From assembly GCA_037952775.1 (NCBI GenBank), contig JBANAY010000004.1:9548001-9612000 (forward strand): 64,000 nucleotides of DNA. The letters are read 5' to 3'. Positions within the stretch are counted from its first letter, which is position 1. Each line of letters opens with the position of its first letter. This stretch comes from Clonostachys chloroleuca (lineage: Eukaryota; Ascomycota; Sordariomycetes; Hypocreales; Bionectriaceae). Position numbers and translations under genes: made by a program. This document shows, in pieces, positions 23,549 through 54,160 of the stretch. The notes under the pieces are model-generated. The model was not told the origin of the DNA. It saw nothing but the letters and a program-made list of their open reading frames with translations, and did not search any database.

Positions 23549-26500
23549 TTAGGCACTTAGGTATTGATCTGGGTGTGACCTTCTTGTGTCACTCACTTGC
23601 TTCATCTCCTCATCCTCTAGCAGTTCGCAGATACGAAGAAACTCCTTGAACCTGGGCAGCACCACCCTACCCTCACAAAAGAGCTCGTCAGGCCCTTCAG
23701 TGTCTGCTAGCCCGGCGTCTCTGTTCTTCCTTAGACGTTCTTTCAATAGCGGCAGAATGCACTTCTTCCCTGCTTTACGGAAATGTGCTTCCCGCGTGTC
23801 TTGGCGACTGTATTCAGCCTTGCAACCCCATTCTGTGCCATCATCCAGTACCCCGAAGCAGATGTGCTTCTCTCCCTTATGCTGGTCCTCGTGACGTTTG
23901 CAATCTGCCTGCCGTTTAAAATGTTTATCACATTTCCCGCATTTGAATTTCTTCTTCCCAGTATGACTTCTCTCATGGTTCTTAAGGTTGTGGCCTCTGG
24001 TGAATCCTTTTCCGCATATGCGACAAGTTAAGCTTGGAGGATGGTTGTTGATGCTTGTGGCCTGTGGTGCCTGAGGAAGAGGAGGAAATTCTGTCTCTTC
24101 TAACATGTCTATGGCGTGAAATTCGAAGAGGTGCTTTTTGAGCTTGGCTTGAGTGTCATAGCCGAATGTAGCGTGGGGGCAATTCAAGACTATACATAAA
24201 AAGGGTAATTCATGTTTAGAGGTATGCCGCCGGCGCTCCTCAAAAGTACGGAACCCTTCATGGTAGTAATAACAACTCACACGGGTACACTTGAACAATT
24301 TATCCCCATAGTACTGGGAAAGTGATTTCCCACGGTCACTGCCTGGAGTTACTGACGATGAGCTTGAAGCTTCAAGAACTTTCCTTATGGAAGCGATGGT
24401 TTCCCAGAGATCAAGGACTTCGTCTGTGCATGGTGATTGACTTCCCATACCAATCTGCTTTAGCGACCAAGCAACTGCTTGCACACCCTGAGAGGAATCG
24501 ACCTCGATGGGTAGCTTGGCAAGGGACTGTTGAAGAGGCTTTGGTACTGCAATCGCTTTTGAATTTGGAGATTCATGAATGTCCGCGAAAGTTTCTAGCG
24601 TCTCCGCAAGCTCCCTGAGTTCTTGATTTTCAGCTTCTTGACTCTTCTTCGGAATCCCTGCTTGGAGATGAAAAGCCCAACAAGCAGAAGAATAATCAAG
24701 GAATGCATAAACGCCATTCAGGAGCTCTGCACTGATTTCATCGTGACTCATACTCGCGCTGACTTGGGGCATACTTAGATAGCCCATACTCAGTATGGCC
24801 AGAGAGCGATGGACATGTAGAAGCTGGACATATTCTGATTGAATGAGATATCTGAAAGGGAAATTAGCTATCTGTATCCTACTTATCTAGGTGCGTGTGA
24901 ACCTACTCGCGTGCTGTGCCGTGTACCAAATCCACCATACCGTTCGGTTGCATCTCGATGAAAGCCGCAAACAGACTCTTTGGAGCTTCCAGTAATTTCT
25001 GCTCTATGACGGCCATTTCTGCATCTAGATTGATGCATATGGCACCTTGTATCTCACGCCATCGAAGGGGCCTGGGTGAACACACAATCCACCCAAGTAC
25101 TTTCCGAATCTCATTCTGCATAGGTCTCGATCGAGATTCTAGCATACGCTGCATGATTCTGTCGTATCTACATGGAATAATAAGCAAAATTGTAAGTGCG
25201 CGTTTCCTTCCAAGAGGCTACTTACGCTTCATTTAATTGAACTGGAAGTTTGGAAGGATCAAGTTCCTTTACTAAGCTTTCCCGAGAGGGTTGATCTTCA
25301 AGATATTGAAGCATTAGCTTAGCAAACAAAAACATACCTGTGAAAGAATCAATTAGTAACTCGGTGGCCAATTAGCAGAGATGTGACCTGCCTTGTGACC
25401 TTGCGCTGACGATATTCGCAATGTGTAGGCTTGGGGTCCTGAGCACCCCAAACTTGTCTTCAATTCTTTTGTGCCACACAGTGGCAAAGTCTTCAATATC
25501 TCCCTTGCTGTCGGCACGAGATATAGTTATTTTGGGAAGCTGATTGAACCATTTGCGTGAAACGCCGTCGTCTTGGCTGACGAAGAGACATCTGAAGTTT
25601 TGTTGCTCATGTGTGGGAAGGGCATCACTCTTGGCTTGGAACCAGCATGCGATTTCTTTCCGCTGTTGATTTTCGCACTCGTCAATGCCATCCAATACAA
25701 GGAACATTGTATGATTCTTAGCACAATTGTTAATTAAAATCTCCAAGAGGTCTTTGGCCAATTCCGGCGATGAGAGAACACTGTCGCTACTCATGGCTGC
25801 TTTTTCATAGACATACGACAGTAAATCTGGCGTGTTTGGTAGCAGTTGAACTAGAATGGACCGTGCTATAGCGAGGAATGAGTTCCTGGACTTGTCGCCG
25901 TATTTGCAGAAAAAGTATGCGATCGCTATGTCTTTGCTTTTGGCCTTCGATATCAATTCGTCGATTACGACCGACGCCAGGATAGTTTTGCCTAAAGCTC
26001 ATGTTTTAGTCTTTTGTATCGCCAGTCCTCCAGTGATACGACCTACCGGCCCCAGGAATACCTGTCAACCATATCAAGGGTGTATCGCAGTAGTTGACGT
26101 CAAGCCAGCGTTGAAAACAAGGATTGCCGAACAACCAGCGACCAGAACCCGGGCAACGGCTCCGTTCCTGGCGGTGAAAGTCTTGCTGTCCCTCGTTACT
26201 AAACCCAGAAAGCCAGCTCTTCACACTTGCTCGATGGGCTTCCTCCTGAGCCTTCTCTGTTAAGGCCAGGTGATCGTTGGCCTTTTGCTGAACAGCACGA
26301 ATTGTTTGGAATTCCATGATGCTTGCCCGGCTTTCAATCAACTGTCTATGCCTGAGCATGTTCCCTGCAAAGTGCTTTACTTTCTTTTCGAAGCCTCTCC
26401 ACGTAGCTGCGAAGACTTTCATCCAAACTTTAGAGATCAGTTAGCATGTGCTTGGCTGAAGGACCCTAGCGGAGTACATACATGATTTTCTGAAAAAGCG

Positions 26501-40884: not shown

Positions 40885-42831
40885 CTATGGTATGAATACG
40901 ATACTTGAATCGTCGATGACAACATTGCGGAGCACAGTCCGGAATTGATGATTCCCACTGAGGACGATCGGGTCGTTGGCTGCAGTGATGTTACTAGCTA
41001 TTACCTTGCTAGAGAGAAAGGTGCGAGACTTACTGGCTGAGCTAGATGTAGGTGTGATAGGCCCCTGAGGCCCAATGGGGCCCCTACGACCTACAGGTCT
41101 CCTCGGCACTCTGGGTGCGCTTGGTGCTCTGGGTGCGTCAGGTGCTCTGGGAGGGCTCCAAGGGACGGTGGATGAACTGGTTGTGCTCGGTGTACCTGGT
41201 GTATCGGCCGTACTGGCTCTGCTGGGTGTGGCAGCCGCGGCAGCCTTTCTGGCCTTCATATCTGCGATCGAGGTATAGATGGGGATGGAAGTTGGATTAT
41301 TGAAAGCCTTGGCTCGATTCTCCATCTCTCGCCTCGTCTCTGGCGGCATCTGCTCGTGAATTTGTCGCAGTTGATCCTCCAGCTCCTCCTGCTCTCGCTG
41401 CTTGACGGTATGCCACTGGGCATGATCTAGGTCTCGTTTGGCCACCTCTTGCTCCAGCTCGTACTGCTGCAGAGCAAGCTTCTTCTGCCAATCGGCTAGC
41501 TGCCTACAATGTTCCTGCTGCCGCAAGATATCCTGTCTCTTCAACTGCTCGTCCTCCCGCTCGGTGTGCTGGCCCCGCAACTCGAGGAGCTCCCCGAAAT
41601 ACTCCTGTGTCCTCAAGTCATGCTGTTCTTGCAGCCCTTGCGTTTCCTGATGATACTGAGCTCGCAGATCTATACTCTTCTCAGTATAGAGCCGATCTGC
41701 ATCCAGCAGCATGCTGTACAGCTCAGATTCTCGCTGGTAAGGCTCTTTCTGTAGTTCTGACTTTCGTTGGACGAGCCTGCTCTGCAGGTTGGCCTCTTGG
41801 TGTTTATACGCATCCTGCAACGCGGTCATCTGTAGAATATGATCCTGATCTCTTCGTGCCTGCTCCCTCTGTAGTCTCTCCTCCTGTTGACGATGGGCAC
41901 TATCTCTCGTGACTTGATCTCTTTGTAGGCAGGTCTGCTGCAGACGGTACTCTCGATCGCACGCAGCTTGGTCTCTTTGTAGCCCGACCATCAACTGATG
42001 ATAATCTCGATTGTTCGCCCCCAAATTTCTCGTCAGCTCGGCCCGGGCAAAAGAATGGTCTAGATTCCTGACAGACTGCTCGGACCGTATTCCGGCCAGC
42101 TTTCTCTGCAGTTTCTCCTCCTCTCGCTTTAGCTGTTCCTGGTGCTGCTCCGGATCATGCCGCACCTCGTGGTTACCGACCTCCTGCTTCTGCTGCTGCT
42201 TCATCTGCTCCTCCCGCAAAAAGTCGAACAGCATGAAATCTGTGCCTTTGGCAGCCTCCATCAAACTAGGTTGGGACGGTGCTCTCGCGAGCTCAATGGC
42301 GTCCTCCCTGGTGAGAGACAAAACGTCATTTCCAATGAGCTTTTCAAGAGCAACGATTGCATCGTTGAAACTGTTGCACATTGCCTGAATGTTGTCAGGG
42401 TCTTTTGGTACCCACTTCAATACCGGATTCGAATGCTCCGCGTTGAACTTCTGTCGATAGCTGCGCTGGAAGTCGACCAGCCAGCTTCTGAGAGATTCGG
42501 AGTCGGGGTCGGGGTCGGGGTCGGGGTCGGCCTGGGCTGCCCTGCTGTCCGCAGGCACAAAGGTGCCGCTCTGATCCAGGGCCGTCTTCAACTCGGACAT
42601 TGGTTGAGAGACCGCGACCAGGTCAAGACCGCTCAGCGACCCCTGGAGGTATGGCACTTCTTGACGGGCAAGCCCCAGAAGACGGCTGCACCGCATGAAA
42701 CGGATTCTCATTAGGTCGAGCTGGTTTTTCTTGAAGGTATCTTCATAGACTGCATCGGCAGACAATGCATCCATGACCGTGAGGAAGAGAAACTCAGCCT
42801 CGAAGATATTGGCACCTGTTGTTTTGGTCAT
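40885..42831 (-). CDS. HeLo-like / long coiled-coil protein with HET-s-type amyloid-like C-terminal pseudo-repeats
   Basis: Single exon, 648 residues, ATG 42831. Residues ~10-170 (FLTVMDALSADAVYEDTFK, LDLMRIRFMRCSRLLGL, ...NSFNDAIVALEKLIG) resemble the alpha-helical HeLo/SesA-type N-terminal domain of fungal prion-inhibition proteins. It is interrupted by a DPDPDPDPD loop (102-110). Residues ~205-510 are an almost continuous Q/E/R/L-rich coiled coil. A Pro/Ala/Arg-rich linker (~540-600) follows. The last 40 residues contain two pseudo-repeats 22 residues apart: SNITAANDPIVLSGN (613-627) and RNVVIDDSSIVFIP (635-648), with N614/N636, I615/V637, I622/I644 and V623/V645 aligned. This resembles the two-rung HET-s amyloid motif. 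The inferred role is a membrane-targeting cell-death effector triggered by amyloid templating. No cognate NLR with a matching N-terminal motif lies in this window. Confidence 0.7.
   Translation of the reverse strand: MTKTTGANIFEAEFLFLTVMDALSADAVYEDTFKKNQLDLMRIRFMRCSRLLGLARQEVPYLQGSLSGLDLVAVSQPMSELKTALDQSGTFVPADSRAAQADPDPDPDPDSESLRSWLVDFQRSYRQKFNAEHSNPVLKWVPKDPDNIQAMCNSFNDAIVALEKLIGNDVLSLTREDAIELARAPSQPSLMEAAKGTDFMLFDFLREEQMKQQQKQEVGNHEVRHDPEQHQEQLKREEEKLQRKLAGIRSEQSVRNLDHSFARAELTRNLGANNRDYHQLMVGLQRDQAACDREYRLQQTCLQRDQVTRDSAHRQQEERLQREQARRDQDHILQMTALQDAYKHQEANLQSRLVQRKSELQKEPYQRESELYSMLLDADRLYTEKSIDLRAQYHQETQGLQEQHDLRTQEYFGELLELRGQHTEREDEQLKRQDILRQQEHCRQLADWQKKLALQQYELEQEVAKRDLDHAQWHTVKQREQEELEDQLRQIHEQMPPETRREMENRAKAFNNPTSIPIYTSIADMKARKAAAAATPSRASTADTPGTPSTTSSSTVPWSPPRAPDAPRAPSAPRVPRRPVGRRGPIGPQGPITPTSSSASKSRTFLSSKVIASNITAANDPIVLSGNHQFRTVLRNVVIDDSSIVFIP
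42501..42530. repeat. 6-bp coding microsatellite (GGTCGG)n
   Basis: About four to five tandem GGGGTC units in frame within the HeLo-like gene, encoding alternating Asp-Pro. Expansion or contraction stays in frame. Confidence 0.85.
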
Positions 42832-45389: not shown

Positions 45390-45560
45390 GATATAGTTTT
45401 AATAGCCTTATTATTAGCTCTGATAAAGGAAGCTATAAGTATATAGTTCTTAAAGGGAACTAAGAGAGGGCTTAGGTTATACTTATTAAAGCTATTTCTA
45501 CTATTAGAGAGACTCTAACTCCTTATATTATATTTAAAGGTAAAGCAGTATAGTAATAAT
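45390..45560 (+). pseudogene. pogo transposase remnant, DDE-domain part
   Basis: Read through A/T-type mutations, the segment gives SSDKGSYKYIV...KAISTIRETLTPYIIFKGKAV. This matches the DDE_1 domain of pogo transposases (…LPPFIIFKGK-type). Many stops in all frames. It lies left of the LTR insertion point at 45849. Confidence 0.7.
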
Positions 45561-45848
45561 AGTTTAAAGATAACTTTAATAAGAAGTAGCTATTTATAAT
45601 ATTATAAAATAGATAGATTAGTAATACCCTTACGCTTAAATAGCTTTAATAAGTATTTATTCCGGAAACTACTCCTACTAATCCCTCTGAGGCTCGGCTG
45701 CTGATAGTTAATAGCTACAGCTTATATATAATACCGGAATTTATATAGGAATACTTCTAAAATAATATCTTCCTTCTCTTCTTACCTGTATATACCTTAT
45801 ATATCTTACAGCTGCTTAACTTAGGTATATTTTCTATACTAAAAGCAG

Positions 45849-46211
45849 TATTATAAATTTAACCAGTGTATACTATTATATATAGACCTTACTTTTTCTC
45901 TCTAATTATACCTGAATTATCCAGATCTTATAATAATCCTTATAATTCTTAACTTAGAATTATTACTAAGCCTTAATAATCCCCTAGTATATATATATAT
46001 TTATTTCCCTAGATAAAATACTCTTTTAGATAGTTATTAATAATATTATCTATATATCTATTATTACTAGTTCTATAATACTTATATATAGATAGTAACT
46101 TATATTATATAGCCTAAGATAACCTAATTATATTACTTAGAATAATACTCTAATTAGTTTAATCCTAATCTACTCTAGACCCTATTCAGTATAAATTAAC
46201 TAACTATTATA
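45849..46211 (+). repeat. 5' LTR of chromovirus
   Basis: 363 bp, same length as the 3' LTR. Differences are almost all transitions. Confidence 0.9.
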
Positions 46212-46599
46212 TATTAATAACTCTTATTTAGCTAATTATCTTATCTTAATTACTATATAATAATAAAGAAGATATTATAGCTGCTATAGTACTCTAAGTC
46301 TAGTAATAGTATACTCCTACTACTAATAATAATCTACCTGCTCTAACTATTAAAGATAATACTATAGATAAGGATAGTAATAATAGTAGTAAGAATAATA
46401 ATAACTATACTAAGGAAATATAGCTCTTATAAAACTAAATTAATTAACTTTATATATATCTTACAGATACTTACTAGGAGTTAGCTAATATAATAGTTAT
46501 TATAATATAATAAGCTGCTATATATACTAATCTCTAGGCTCAGGCTATAACTACTATTTAAGGAAGAGAACTAGAATAACTACTTAAGCTACTACTACT

Positions 46600-49500
46600 T
46601 AAAATATTTAATAGAATCTAAAATAAACTCTAGGAGTTTATAACTTAACTCTAAATATACTTTAATTACTTTCCTATTATACTTAATACTAGTAAAAGAA
46701 AGGTTATATATATCTACTTATAACTTAAGGGAGTTATACTTAACTAGTTTAAACCTATTATAAAAGAATACCTTAGTAGATAGGAAAGCTAATAAACTAT
46801 TAATATTATAATAAGTTTTAATTATTTTATAGAAGTTCTTAAATAAACCTTTAGTATTTAAGATAAAAAGTATAAAATAGAATATAAGATTAATATATTT
46901 ATCTAAAAAGGATTATATTTAACCTTTAGTACTTACTATCTCTAGCTACTAGCTAAGACTAGATAGAATAAGAAATATATTATATCTTACTACTTTAATT
47001 AACTTAAAAAGGAAGTTTAAGAAGAACTATATAAGGAAAATAGGCTAAAAAGTATTTATAAATATATAACTATAGCTATAAGGATTAATAACTAGTAATA
47101 TTATTAGTAAATCTATAATAGAAAAGTAACTTATTTTACTAATACTAGAAAACTATAATAGTAGTATACTATAGCCTCTAGAATATATATAGAACCTATA
47201 GAGCTAGAAGCTATAGAGAAATATAAATATTATAACTATAATAAGGTTAGATATATTTTATTCTAATATCCAGAACCTAAGAAAGATAAGAAGAAAGATT
47301 AGAAACCTGCTAAAATAGTAAGAAGTAATTAGAAGTAATAGGGAAAACTAATACTAAAGTCTTAGAAATAATATATAAAATCAAGGAAACTCCTATAACT
47401 ATTATAATTTCTAAGTACCCCCTAAAAGATATATCTATTTTTAAGAAGTATTAGAACCTAAGGAATATATAAAACTTAGTATAACTAGAAAATAATAAGA
47501 AGAAATCTAATAGATTTTCTAAGAGCTTAAAGAAAAGCTTAAATAAGAAAAACCAGTTCTAGGATTTAGACTACTTACTAAATATAAATATATATTCTAT
47601 TATACTAATAGAGTTATTCTATAAAATTCTACTAAAAAGAAATAATACTAGTATATAAGAATAGAAATTAAAGCTAAATATAATAAACTCTATATATACT
47701 ATTAAAAGAAAATATAGGAATAATATCTAGATATATTAGAAGAACTAGTTATTTTTAGAAATAATACTATTAGTACTATATAGCTCAGTAATAGTATATA
47801 TAAGATATTAATCTATATAGAGATAATATAGATATATAATTATCCTCTGGAATTATAGATAACCTACTATAATAATTAGTACTAAGTATATTAAATAGAA
47901 AAAACTAAAAATAATTTTTTTCTATATCTTAATAGAAGAATATCTAATAAATATACTATAGAATAAATATAATAGTTTATATACTAATAATATAGTATAA
48001 AATAATATACTATCTTTAAGAAAGATTTAAAAGAATACTCTAAAGAATATACTTATAGTAAACTACTAGCTAAATTATACCCTAAGCTAAGATATAAGGT
48101 TTATAAAAAAGCTAAGATTAAACTATAGTATAAGAATAAGAACCTTAAAGATTAAGTAATAGCTAAATATAGTAGTTAAATTAAATAATATTATAACTAG
48201 AAGTATAAAAACTACTTAGAAGCTAAAATAATAGTATTAGAACTAGCTAAATATAGTAATAATAATATAAACTCTACTAAGATATACTTTTAATAGTACT
48301 AACTATAGGAAGAGAAAATAAGATAATACTATAAATAAGATATACTATCTTTAATAGATAGTAAAAGAAGTAGTAATATAGAGAAATAAGAAATTACCTC
48401 TACTAATAAAAAAGAATAGAATAAAACTTACTCTAATAATAGAATACTTATAATAATTAGTAAATTAAATAATTAGAAAAAGAAATATAAATAATTTATC
48501 TCTAGTTCTATAGATAAACTAAAAACCTTTATAGATATTTTAAAATAAATATTTAAAAATAAAAAAGAGTAAAAATAGCTTAAATAATAAATTAACTAGA
48601 TAAAAAATAATATAAACTATTTATAATAAGACTATAGTATAGTAAAATAATATTAAATTAGAAGACCTTAGGAGCTATTAAGAGAGGAAATTTAATTAAT
48701 ATTATTATAGATATTAAGATTAAGGGATACTAGCTTATAGTATAGATAGACTATAGAGTATTATATAATTATATCTTACTAGTAGTAATTAATTAACTCT
48801 TCTTACTATAGAGAATAAAGAAGAAGTTCTATAATATTATAACTCTAGATAGAATATTATTTAAATATAATAATAGAATTATTAACTCTAAAACTAATTA
48901 CTTTATAATTAAAATCTAAAGGAAAAAATTTAATATTATATATAATCTAGTACTATTAAATTCCTATAATATTATATTAGGATTACTATAGCTATAAAAT
49001 ATAAACCTACTAATAAACTAGTTTACTAGCTATATAGAGTAGAGGGATATTCTTATAAATCTATATTAGGATTAATAAAAATTAAAATTTTATTAGATAT
49101 TAGAAGAATATAATAATTCCTTAATAACTAAAAGTACTATTATAAAAAACTAAAATAATAATTTATAATAATAAGTAAATATAGTAGTTATAGTCTTAAT
49201 AGTACTATAACCTAGTATACTAAAGAATCTATCTTACTAAGAATTATAATAAATAAAATAAATCTTAGAATAGATATAAAAATTAGAATAATCCCTAGAA
49301 ATAAATTTTATTAATTAGATATATATAATAAATTAATAAAAATATAATTATAATATTAAGTTTAATCTATAGTATAAATAAGCTAGAAAGAAATAATTAT
49401 AAAAAGATAAGGAAGAATATCTTAAAAAGGGAAGATTAGATTATATCCTAAAGGAATACTAGAAATATAATAAGCTATTTAAGGAAACCCTAGAAACTAA

Positions 49501-52420
49501 ATTACTATAGTATAGTTAATAGGATTATAAAATCTCTATTATTAAAGGAGGAGAACTAGCTTTCTATAAACTCTATAACCTTATAGAACCTTAGTTATAA
49601 ATACTCTATAAATATATTAATAATATATTAGTAAAAGACTATATATAGTTATTAACTTTATCTATAGGATACCCTATAATATTTATACTTAAAAAGAATA
49701 ATAAACTCTATTTAGTAATTAATTATTATTAACTAAATAAAATTATATATAAAGACAGAATACCCTTACTACTAATTATAGAACTCAGAGACTAGTTATA
49801 GGATAAATAGTAGTTTACTATACTAGATCTAAAAGGAGCTTATAACTTAATATAAATTAAAGAAGGAGATAAATAGAAAATAGTATTTAAAATAAAGTTT
49901 AGTTTATATAAGTACTTTATTATACCCTTTAAACTAATAAATATATCTATAATATTCTAATAAATAATTAATTAAATACTCTAGGAGTATCTTAATATCT
50001 TTATAGTTATATATCTTAATAATATTTTAATATTCTTAGATAATTTAGATATATATAAAGAATATATATATAAGGTTCTAAAGAAACTAGAAGATATAAA
50101 TCTCCTAGTAGAACCTAAGAAAAGTTAGTTTTATATTAAGAAAGTTAACTTCCTAGGATATACTATTTAACCTAATAAAATATAAATAGAAAAAAGTAAA
50201 ATTACTATAGTTTCTAAATAGAAAGAACTAATAAATATTAAAAAAGTATAAGCTTTCCTTAGATTTACTAATTACTATTAATAATTTATTAAAGATTATA
50301 AGAAGATTACTATACTACTATATAATCTAATAAAGAAAGAAAAAGAGTTTTAATAGAATTTAAAATATTAAGATATATTTAATAATATTAAGAACTATAT
50401 AATCTATAAACCTATACTATAGATATTTAATCTAAATAAAGAAGTAGAACTTAAAACTAATACTTTAGATTTTATAATTAGTATATAAGTTAGCTAAAGG
50501 GATAATAAAGAGAGATTATACCCTATAGTATTCTACTTAAAGAAACTATATAGTATAGAACTTAATTACCCTATCTATAATAAAGAATTTATAGCTATTA
50601 TATATATATTTAAAGAATTTAAATACTACTATCTGGGAATATAATATAAGGTTAAGATATATATAGACTATAAAAATATTCAGTATTTTACTATAACCTA
50701 ATAACTTAATAGATAATAAATATACTATACTAAATACTTATCTAAGTTTAATTATAAAATTATATATTAAAAAGAATTAGAAAATAGATAAGCTAATACT
50801 CTTAGCTAGAAACCTAAGTATAAATAAATAATTCTAAAAACTAATAGATAACTATTTTTAATAAATAATAAAGGATATTTAGTATAATAAACTCTAGATA
50901 CTATACTAAAGGAAATAGTATATATTAAGATACAGATAGAAGCTATGCTAAATATAAAAATACTATAATAAGATATAAGAATAGTACTTATTAAGGAAAT
51001 CTATAAGTATCTGCTTTTAGAATACTAAGAAGTTAAGAAAATATTTAATAGGATAAAATAATATTATAATTACTCTGGTCTATAGAAGGATATATAAACT
51101 ATAGTTTTAGAATATAATACTTTGTCGGGATAGCTAGTCAGTCAGGGCTCTTGCGATCACGTGGCCTAACCACGTGACCGCTCCAGCCTCTATTTAACCC
51201 CGGGCCACGAGCCCGTAGGTCAGCTAGCTAGAGAAGAATATATACAGAATACAACAGAACCTATCCAACAGCATATGCTAAGGAAGTCCTTCCAATATAC
51301 TTATATATAAATTAAATCTATAAGATATAAACTATATAGAGAACTTAAACTAGTCTTAGTACTAAAATAACTATAGTAATTAATATCCTTTAACTATATT
51401 ATTAAGCTATTATTATTAATAGAATCTATAATAGGAGTATAGTATAATAGTATCCTAATTATTATTAATAGACTTATAAAGTATAGATATTTTATTCTAT
51501 ATAAAGAAGTAAGTTCTACAGAAGACCTTATATATTAATTCCTATAATATATAGTTAGTTACTATAGATTATTTAAAGAAATAATTTTAAATAGAGAAAT
51601 AACTTTTACTTCTAAATTTTAATAATCCCTTATAGTATAAATAGGTACTAAGTATAAGCTTTTAATAGCTTACTACCTCTAGAGTAATAGATAAATAGAA
51701 TATTTAAACTAAATATTAGAATAATACTTATAAGTATATATTAATTATAAATAAAATAATTAGATATAATTATTATCTATAGTATAGATTATATATAATA
51801 GTTTAGTATAAAAATCTATTTAGCTTATATCTATATATATAAACTATAGTTATAAACTAGAATTTTAGAACTAATAAATACTTAATAGATTAAATATATC
51901 TATTACTATACTTATAAAAGAAATATTATATTTATTATATATAGAAATAAAAATAGAATTAGAATTTATTTAGAAAAGAATAAAAAAATATTATAATAAA
52001 ATAAGATTAAAGGAACTAATCTTAAAGGAGAGAGATAAAGTCTATTTACTCTATAAAAATATTATAATATTATAACTAAGTAATAAATTAAACTATAAAA
52101 AACTTAGACTATTTAAAATTAAAAATAAAAAATTAAATACTAACTATAAACTTTTACTACTAGATATAATATATATTTACCTAGTTTTTTATATCTTATT
52201 ACTTAAAAAAGTACTAGAGAATACTCTAGATTAAGACTATCTAATTAAGATCTATAAAGAAGAATATAAATTAGAAAAAATACTAAAAAAAGAAATTAGA
52301 AATAAATAAATATTTTACTTTATTAAATAGAAAGAATATACTAATAATAATAATATCTAGGAACTTACTAAATATCTAAAGAATTACTAGAAGCTTATCT
52401 AATAGTATTATTAGGCTTAG
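46600..52420 (+). pseudogene. gag-pol of the chromovirus, destroyed by A/T-type mutation
   Basis: Domains are readable in order through numerous stops. A CCHC-like knuckle trace lies near 47,230. The reverse transcriptase block LDLKGAYN is at 49,824-49,848, and the YLDD box has become YLNN (about 50,007-50,036). An RNase H trace (NKEFIAIIYIFKEFKYYYLG) is at about 50,580-50,640. An integrase zinc-region trace (YYNYSGL.KDI) begins at about 51,060, and a C-terminal chromodomain trace (EYKLEKILKKEIRNK) at about 52,260-52,410. The order RT-RH-INT-chromodomain identifies a Ty3/gypsy chromovirus. No functional product. Confidence 0.8.
51123..51297 (+). mobile_element. Solo-LTR-like insertion, not A/T-converted
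   Basis: 175 bp starting TGTCGGGATAGC and ending CTTCCAATA, flanked by TACTT on both sides (51118-51122 and 51298-51302). Unlike its surroundings it is G/C-balanced, with intact CACGTG sites (GATCACGTGG...CCACGTGACC), a TATTTAA box and GGCCACGAGCCC. It therefore arrived after the host element was mutated. It splits the integrase zinc-binding region. Confidence 0.8.
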
Positions 52421-53082
52421 AAATACCTATTCTAATAAACTAAGAAGGAGAAAGCTCTATACCCTTTTAAAGAAATACCAGATTAATCTTAATCTTTAAA
52501 AAAATAAGCTTAGATAAAGGAGTAACCTCTGAAGAAGAAGCTACCTTATAAGCTGCCTCTTCTACTTCCTTCTTCTTAATATACTTAAGCTTTTTAATAC
52601 TATTAATACTATAAGATACTACTTATATTATTTTATTAAATTATAATTTCTTTTATTAATAAAGATATTAAATTTTTATATCTATAAGCTAATACTATTC
52701 CTCTACTATCTTAAGCTTAGACTTAAGCTTTCTATACTAATTAGTAATCTAATATAGCTAGCTAGGAGTTAGACCCTAAGTATTATAATAGGCTTAATTA
52801 TTTTTAATATAATAAAAATACCTTAATAAAGAGCCTTCAGATCTAAAATACTTATAGCTATATACTTTATAATAGCTATACTCTATCTTTATTATAAAAG
52901 GATTAAGTAAGATAGTATTAATTAAAGAATTATACTAAATAGTCTTTTTATAAAGAGATTTCTATATATAGTTAGATATTATTCCAGAAAGTATAAAGGA
53001 ATAATAGAAAGAAGTTAATATATCTACTAACTAAATTACTAAATCTAGTCTTAAGAATATAACTAATAGAGAGAGGATATTA

Positions 53083-53445
53083 TATTATAAATTTAACTAG
53101 TATATACTATTATATATAGACCCTACTTTTTCTCTCTAATTATACCTAGATTATCTAGATCTTATAATAATCCTTATAATCTTTAACTTAGGATTATTAT
53201 TAAGCCTTAATAATCCCCTAGTATATATATATATTTATTTCCCTAGATAGAATACTCTTTTAGATAGTTATTAATAATATTATTTATATATCTATTATTA
53301 CTAGTTCTATAATACTTATATATAGATAGTAACTTATATTATATAGCCTAAGATAACCTAATTATATTACTCAGAATAATACTCTAATTAGTTTAACCCT
53401 GATCTACCCTAGACCCCGTCTAGTATAAGTTAACTAACCATTATA
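53083..53445 (+). repeat. 3' LTR of chromovirus
   Basis: 363-bp copy of 45849-46211. It retains a few more C/G positions (for example CTAGACCCCGTC against CTAGACCCTATTC). Confidence 0.9.
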
Positions 53446-53450
53446 AGCAG

Positions 53451-54160
53451 CCTATTAAAAATATCTAAAGTAGCTTAATAAAATACTTAATTTAACTATA
53501 ATTAGAAAGGCTAACTTCCTCGAATATTATACTAAAGCTTATAAGGAGGCTCTAATAGCGAAGAATATTAAGTTAGGATTTCAGGCTATAGGAATTTATC
53601 CTCTAAACTGCTGGAAGGTACTCCTAAGCAGCTAAGTTATAGCTATAGCTAAAGCACCCTTAATACTATAAAAGCTAGCCCAGAAGGATAAATATAATCT
53701 TTAAATACCTCGAAATAGCCTTTAAGTTATTAATACTATAAGGTATCTATACCCTGCTAGCCCTTATACGAGAAGGCTGCTTATATAATATAGCTATAAA
53801 GCAGTACAAACAATCAATTTATTAAGTATTTAACTGATCTTAAAAGATTAGGAATTAGAGGCCTAAAAGGCCCTGAATAAATACCTAAGTCATAAGAAGT
53901 ATAGAGCTATTAAACCAGATAAGAATAAGATTTTCTGCTTACTTATACAGATAAAAGATGTACAAGGTAGGCTTAATGAATTGAGGAGGAAGAGGTAGTG
54001 TGTACGGAAGCTATGAACCTCTAATGATGATAATACTGATACCGCCATAATCATCACGATAAGCTGATCATAATGGTATAATTTTTATAGCTATTGGAGT
54101 TGAATTTATATAGTAATTATTAAGTTGTATTATTAAGACTGTCAAAAATGTATAGCATTT
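53451..54160 (+). pseudogene. pogo transposase remnant, C-terminal part
   Basis: At 53,540-53,620 it reads EALIAKNIKLGFQAIGIYPLN, the conserved C-terminal block of Fot/pogo transposases (AFRATGIYPLNP type). Less A/T-converted than the retroelement. Several stops. Confidence 0.7.

Follow-up and report, generated by a model that had tools for sequence, protein, structure and literature searches.

A predicted divergent HeLo-type fold joined to a helical repeat rod and a short tail in a Clonostachys chloroleuca protein

The 64,000-nucleotide stretch of Clonostachys chloroleuca DNA analyzed here (contig JBANAY010000004.1, positions 9,548,001 to 9,612,000; hereafter the window) carries a gene whose product is best described as a HeLo-fold domain followed by a repeat rod, a linker, and a short tail. 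The HeLo-type fold, the helical rod with its repeats, and the conserved layout were all obtained by computation. An earlier note on this DNA had proposed a prion-type cell-death effector at 40885..42831, and these coordinates were correct, corresponding to one minus-strand open frame of 648 codons. We consider that the protein may well be of effector type, with clustering of its HeLo domains governed by the rod and a trigger received through the tail, although we hold this reading tentatively and rate it somewhat short of probable.

The N-terminal domain

Structural comparison by VIA-align and Foldseek showed that residues 3/6-210 resemble HET-s and HET-S (2wvn, 2wvo, and 2wvq), which were the only entries in the structure list to stand out and did so across nearly the whole domain, at 12-13% identity in the structural alignment. 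HeLo (PF14479) was not matched above the Pfam gathering score, and 0 families were returned at E ≤ 10 for the full-length protein, the N-terminus, or any of the 4 aligned members. Pfam and NCBIfam scans assigned no family to the whole protein or the N-terminus and found no kinase in the protein, and the protein was absent from the 15 HeLo (PF14479) matches of the genome. A sequence search of the PDB gave no match; one row at E 1.5 was attributed to chance.

A four-sequence alignment of the N-terminus was then compared by hhalign with 16 HeLo sequences, nine (L001-L008 and L012) taken from the genome's 15 matches and seven others, P0007-P0013. Of the remaining matches, L010 was left out for an internal stop and L011 and L013-L016 as partial; 2 of 9 further HeLo proteins, P0006 (identical to L002) and P0014 (short), were also left out. 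The null consisted of 150 column shuffles and the reversed alignment. The probability was 75.5% (P 2.4e-5; score 38.7 over 126 columns), compared to a score of 12.4 for the reversed alignment and a mean of 13.3 and maximum of 20.1 for the shuffles. With the 9 genome sequences only, the probability was 23.7% and the score 29.3 (shuffle maximum 20.9), and with nine classic sequences (L001, L002, and P0007-P0013) the values were 3.1% and 22.5. Scores against L003, L007, and L008 together (15.7; 0.4%) and against L004-L006 (17.4; 0.7%) were inside the shuffle range; the profile-profile likeness to HeLo is dependent on the choice of HeLo set. When 8 true HeLo sequences were left out one at a time, the lowest two scored 42.6 and 45.8, slightly above the query, and the other six 68.7-136.5. 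Used as a control, the coil of the same protein gave a score of 13.3 with HeLo; with the N-terminal alignment it gave 15.5.

The HeLo-like N-terminus claimed in the earlier note is, therefore, supported by the fold comparison and by the profile comparison with a broad HeLo set, but not by the Pfam hidden Markov models, which were silent. It is very improbable that the domain is an unrelated helical bundle folded in a HeLo-like manner by AlphaFold2 (AF2) by chance, which would leave the gene as a lineage-specific coiled-coil protein. The exclusive prominence of HET-s/HET-S entries over nearly the whole domain argues against such a coincidence, as does an independent profile comparison with the broad HeLo set, which scored far above shuffles. 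The fold is shared with the HET-s/HET-S HeLo domain, as are the L-D-L...R-F-x-R-C...L-G-L and L-K-W-V...D stretches that paired with HeLo sequences in hhalign; the window domain differs in its low identity, in having no Pfam match, and in the rod of about 285 residues that comes after it. Should the HeLo assignment hold, a family missed by the Pfam profile contains a killer-type domain, and Pfam-based counts of fungal HeLo proteins are therefore too low.

Within the domain, a hexanucleotide tandem repeat (Asp-Pro) at 42497-42530 lies in the loop; the second C. chloroleuca record has 2 residues fewer there. Elsewhere in the genome, two HeLo frames (L004 244-2136 and L006 1363-3189) ran on into kinase-like sequence, as judged by eye.

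The rod, the linker, and the gene family

The earlier note had predicted a long coiled coil and a Pro/Ala linker between the HeLo-like domain and the tail, and both were recovered, the first as a predicted helix with 18-residue repeats and the second as a Pro/Ala/Ser/Thr-rich stretch. The AF2 full-length model (predicted local distance difference test score, pLDDT, 54) contained a near-continuous helix made up of segments 227-359, 365-422, 428-494, and 497-511. Self-comparison of the rod at a lag of 18 gave 52 identities in 282 positions (shuffle mean 22.0, standard deviation 4.6, maximum of 1000 shuffles 37), and the best other lag gave 35. Eighteen residues (7+11) is a common coiled-coil period. 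The same periodicity was found in C. rhizophaga (55 identities) and C. solani (49). In C. byssicola, lag 18 gave 35 identities, equal to the shuffle maximum, and another lag gave 42, so that the period does not stand out. The C. solani rod also has an insertion of exactly 18 columns, equal to one additional repeat unit; just ahead of the rod in this protein (P0005), a Gln/His-rich stretch of about 27 residues is tandemly duplicated.

The gene was present in one copy in the genome searched (59.4 Mb, 4 contigs). A protein database of 5.8 billion sequences contained 4 relatives of the full-length protein, all from Clonostachys: C. chloroleuca (98% identity), C. rhizophaga (84%), C. byssicola (63%), and C. 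solani (45%). In the alignment, the start was common to all 4 and the end only roughly so. No relative of the whole protein was found outside Clonostachys by this search, which finds only sequences with short exact words in common, and residues 1-205 as a separate query returned the same 4 relatives under the same limit. Judged by these sequences, the family has so far been seen only in Clonostachys. Rfam and tRNA scans of the window gave no match. Coordinates of the gene and its parts are listed in Table 1.

Table 1. Positions in the window of the gene and of the regions of its product.
Feature	Residues	Window position	Strand	Basis or remark
Single-exon gene	648 aa	40885..42831, including stop codon	-	Open frame, ATG to stop; 4 Clonostachys relatives with same start
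Divergent HeLo-fold domain	1-182	42286..42831	-	
Acidic Asp-Pro loop in HeLo domain	96-112	42496..42546	-	Alignment; length differs between records
Long helical rod	227-511	41299..42153	-	AF2 full length
Five 18-residue repeats in rod	248-337	41821..42090	-	Lag-18 identities
Pro/Ala/Ser/Thr-rich linker, poorly conserved	541-603	41023..41211	-	Alignment; pLDDT about 30
Tail segment 1	610-626	40954..41004	-	HRAM-type positions 1-17; hydrophobic 3, 6, 8, 14 if Ala counted; G626 at 17
Tail segment 2	632-648	40888..40938	-	Hydrophobic 3, 6, 8, 14; Pro in place of Gly at 17, followed by stop

The C-terminal tail and the search for a partner receptor

Val, Ile, Ser, and Asn were abundant in the last 45 residues. 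The two pseudo-repeats described in the earlier note both exist, 22 residues apart with N614 and N636 aligned and 3 identities in 13 positions, but as a blind repeat the tail is weak: the self-match was not significant when any lag from 14 to 32 was allowed (shuffle p 0.14), compared to p 0.01 for a lag of 22 fixed beforehand. The 22-residue spacing of C. chloroleuca recurs in C. rhizophaga and C. byssicola; in C. solani it is 21.

PMC5485727 describes the HET-s-related amyloid motif (HRAM) as a 21-residue motif present twice, with hydrophobic positions 3, 6, 8, and 14 and Gly at 17, and reports double repeats of this type in 155 of 579 HeLo and HeLo-like proteins. With G626 as position 17, segment 1 places A612, I615, A617, and V623 at the hydrophobic positions; at a lag of 22, segment 2 places L634, V637, I639, and V645 there, with P648 replacing Gly and the stop following. 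This relaxed two-segment pattern occurred in 1 of 3000 shuffles of the window tail at lag 22 and in about 0.1% at lags 21-40 (0.4% for shuffles of the C. rhizophaga tail at lags 21-40). Among the ends of 2271 arbitrary open frames it was found in 2 at lag 22 and in 6 at lags 21-40. Both relaxations, Ala taken as hydrophobic and the second Gly waived, were adopted once the data had been seen. The tail fails if Ala is excluded or both Gly are demanded, and it does not fit the strict pattern (two 21-residue repeats, each with all four hydrophobic positions and G17). The pattern of segment 1 alone was common (2.2% of shuffles and 107 of 2271 frame ends).

The partial register was found in 3 of 5 proteins and was eroded in C. 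byssicola (P0004) and C. solani (P0005). The C. byssicola tail kept Gly and 3 of 4 hydrophobic positions in segment 1 and all 4 in segment 2. In C. solani, segment 1 lacked its N-x-T-A half and kept Gly and 2 of 4 positions, and segment 2, at a lag of 21, kept 3 of 4. Over residues 619-648, identity to C. solani was 55%, compared to 63-66% for HeLo, 45% for the rod, and 50% for the linker; the C. byssicola figures were 53% for these tail residues, 70-79% for HeLo, 67% for the rod, and 55% for the linker. By these values, the tail is not consistently better conserved than the rest of the protein. No match of the tails to PF11558 was found in Pfam, and a genome-wide PF11558 search was empty, but its controls also gave no signal. 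The only family matches of the tails, to Herpes_UL42 at E 0.065 and to DUF5969 at E 0.23, each concerned one member and were taken as chance. In the AF2 monomer the tail had no strands, a result compatible with amyloid.

At least 151 nucleoside triphosphatase (NTPase) matches were identified in the genome, some of which are pieces of one gene. For 80 of the first 82 listed, roughly 3 kb of upstream sequence was examined for a NOD-like receptor (NLR) with a matching motif. The two rows skipped adjoin HeLo matches L007 and L013, and one region examined contains HeLo match L008. None of the NACHT (85, PF05729) or NB-ARC (16, PF00931) matches listed falls in the window. One NPHP3_N (PF24883) match does, about 15 kb from the gene, which is unsurprising because at least 151 such matches occur in 59.4 Mb. 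This minus-strand gene (25.6-26.0 kb) was rejected as a partner; a six-frame search of the window with the tail profile returned only the tail of the HeLo-fold protein itself.

Against six-frame translations of the 80 NLR regions, a profile of four tails found nothing below E 0.36 and a profile of eight half-repeats nothing below E 1.5. The lowest values for single-tail queries were E 0.24 with the window tail and E 0.14 with the C. solani tail. None of these was retained: the phmmer match of the window tail (L071, E 0.24) was in a different frame from the NLR start as judged by eye, and those of the C. solani tail (L058, E 0.14) and the profile (L043, E 0.36) were on the strand opposite the NLR. 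As a positive control, a query with the C-terminus of L001 ranked its neighboring NLR region, L034, at the top of 7771 frames (E 0.001). The control motif is well conserved and PP-like, and a divergent partner motif could, therefore, have escaped. The matching NLR that the earlier note suggested looking for was thus not found among the upstream regions of these 80 of at least 151 matches, with the control working.

The control pair itself looks, from its sequence, like a PP-type HeLo-NLR cluster. L001 (C4:8853694-8857278) is a HeLo frame with the terminal PP-like motif GFQIGNNSGKI, and L034 (C4:8857400-8860500), beside it, is an NLR region with GLQIGNNSGSI; a further L034 frame (L034_+2_347) had a related motif (E 0.016). 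The window protein has in common with this pair, and with the PP-type HeLo/HELL-NLR pairs of the HELLP system as described in PMC5485727, a HeLo protein with a C-terminal motif. L001 and its neighbor differ in sharing G-x-Q-I-G-N-N-S-G, whereas no counterpart of the window tail was found in the 80 NLR regions.

These data do not establish the HET-s-like amyloid tail proposed earlier. We regard it as unlikely that the tail is a true HRAM-type two-rung beta-solenoid amyloid, templated by a single-motif NLR and activating the HeLo domain. The rarity of the pattern, the fit of segment 1 to the published positions with a Gly-Asn pair at 17 and 18, the fit of segment 2 to four hydrophobic positions, and the frequency of double repeats in HeLo proteins are consistent with such an amyloid. 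However, the fit needs both relaxations, segment 2 halts at position 17, the pattern erodes in two relatives, and there is neither a PF11558 match nor an adjacent NLR. The 15-residue loop reported between the HET-s repeats (PMC5485727) is also absent.

Proposed function and other features

The absence of a partner NLR in the searched part is consistent with a second alternative, a HeLo-derived coiled-coil scaffold that does not kill, in which HeLo would serve membrane or self-association and the rod and tail would bind other proteins, perhaps at septa or at the cell cortex. A scaffold is favored by the size of the rod, which exceeds that of any other region, by two Glu in the first helix that are invariant in the alignment, and by the absence of the Gly-rich hydrophobic start of HeLo matches L007 and L008. 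First-helix hydropathy was 1.16, compared to 0.75-1.55 for seven HeLo proteins, 1.89 for L007, and 2.15 for L008. However, the finding of relatives in Clonostachys only, with identity as low as 45% between its species, would fit immune-type genes better than housekeeping scaffolds. We consider a scaffold a distinct possibility, but a minor one.

For the effector reading, the divergent HeLo four-helix bundle would be the membrane-attacking module that it is in its relatives. The rod would hold several copies side by side as an oligomer, with their HeLo domains either clustered in advance or kept apart, and the short beta-prone tail at the end of a flexible linker would be the receiving end for a trigger. 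Once tails were bound or stacked, the HeLo domains could be freed to act on a membrane and might kill the cell or seal off a compartment. A more elaborate version, to which we give little credence, is a pre-assembled prion-type killer. In it, the rod, whose repeat number varies between species, would pin the HeLo domains in an oligomer. An unlinked NLR would seed the stacking of the tails, a new and divergent HRAM-type motif without loop and with its second rung cut short, into a solenoid, and the trigger would be cooperative.

Should the HeLo assignment hold, coupling to a repeat rod would add to amyloid tails and to fusion with NLRs or kinases another means of setting the number of HeLo domains assembled. 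Rod length differs between species, and control of HeLo number by the rod is therefore testable. MLKL has brace helices. PMC12881547 describes MLKL as a four-helix-bundle killer under pseudokinase control; a four-helix bundle and parts governing oligomer state are common to both proteins, but the rod of the window protein is a long helix of 18-residue repeats, and the family scans detected no kinase. Other HeLo architectures described there are N-terminal on NLRs or combined with a kinase or pseudokinase. No HeLo protein with an internal coiled-coil rod was found among the PMC papers listed, judged by titles and abstract starts, and the arrangement of divergent HeLo, 18-residue-repeat rod, and partly HRAM-like tail was not met in the literature searched. 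To our knowledge, the prion domain follows immediately on HeLo in the HET-S proteins described so far.

Elsewhere in the window, the region 23549-25995 on the minus strand has an NLR-like NPHP3_N NTPase match at 25576-25995, with C2H2 zinc fingers in the next long downstream frame (23549-24787), which may or may not belong to the same gene. An AT-rich block at 45500-53500, about 2.7 kb upstream of the start codon (GC 0.20, TpA/ApT 1.45, CpG observed/expected 0.17), resembles in its composition the product of repeat-induced point mutation. Among the HeLo proteins compared, the tail of P0008 (C. rhizophaga) had several G-G-T-F-T-Q-H-x-G-type units and those of P0009 and P0010 one or two, together with V-G-V or V-G-I stretches; these units may represent another tail motif family.
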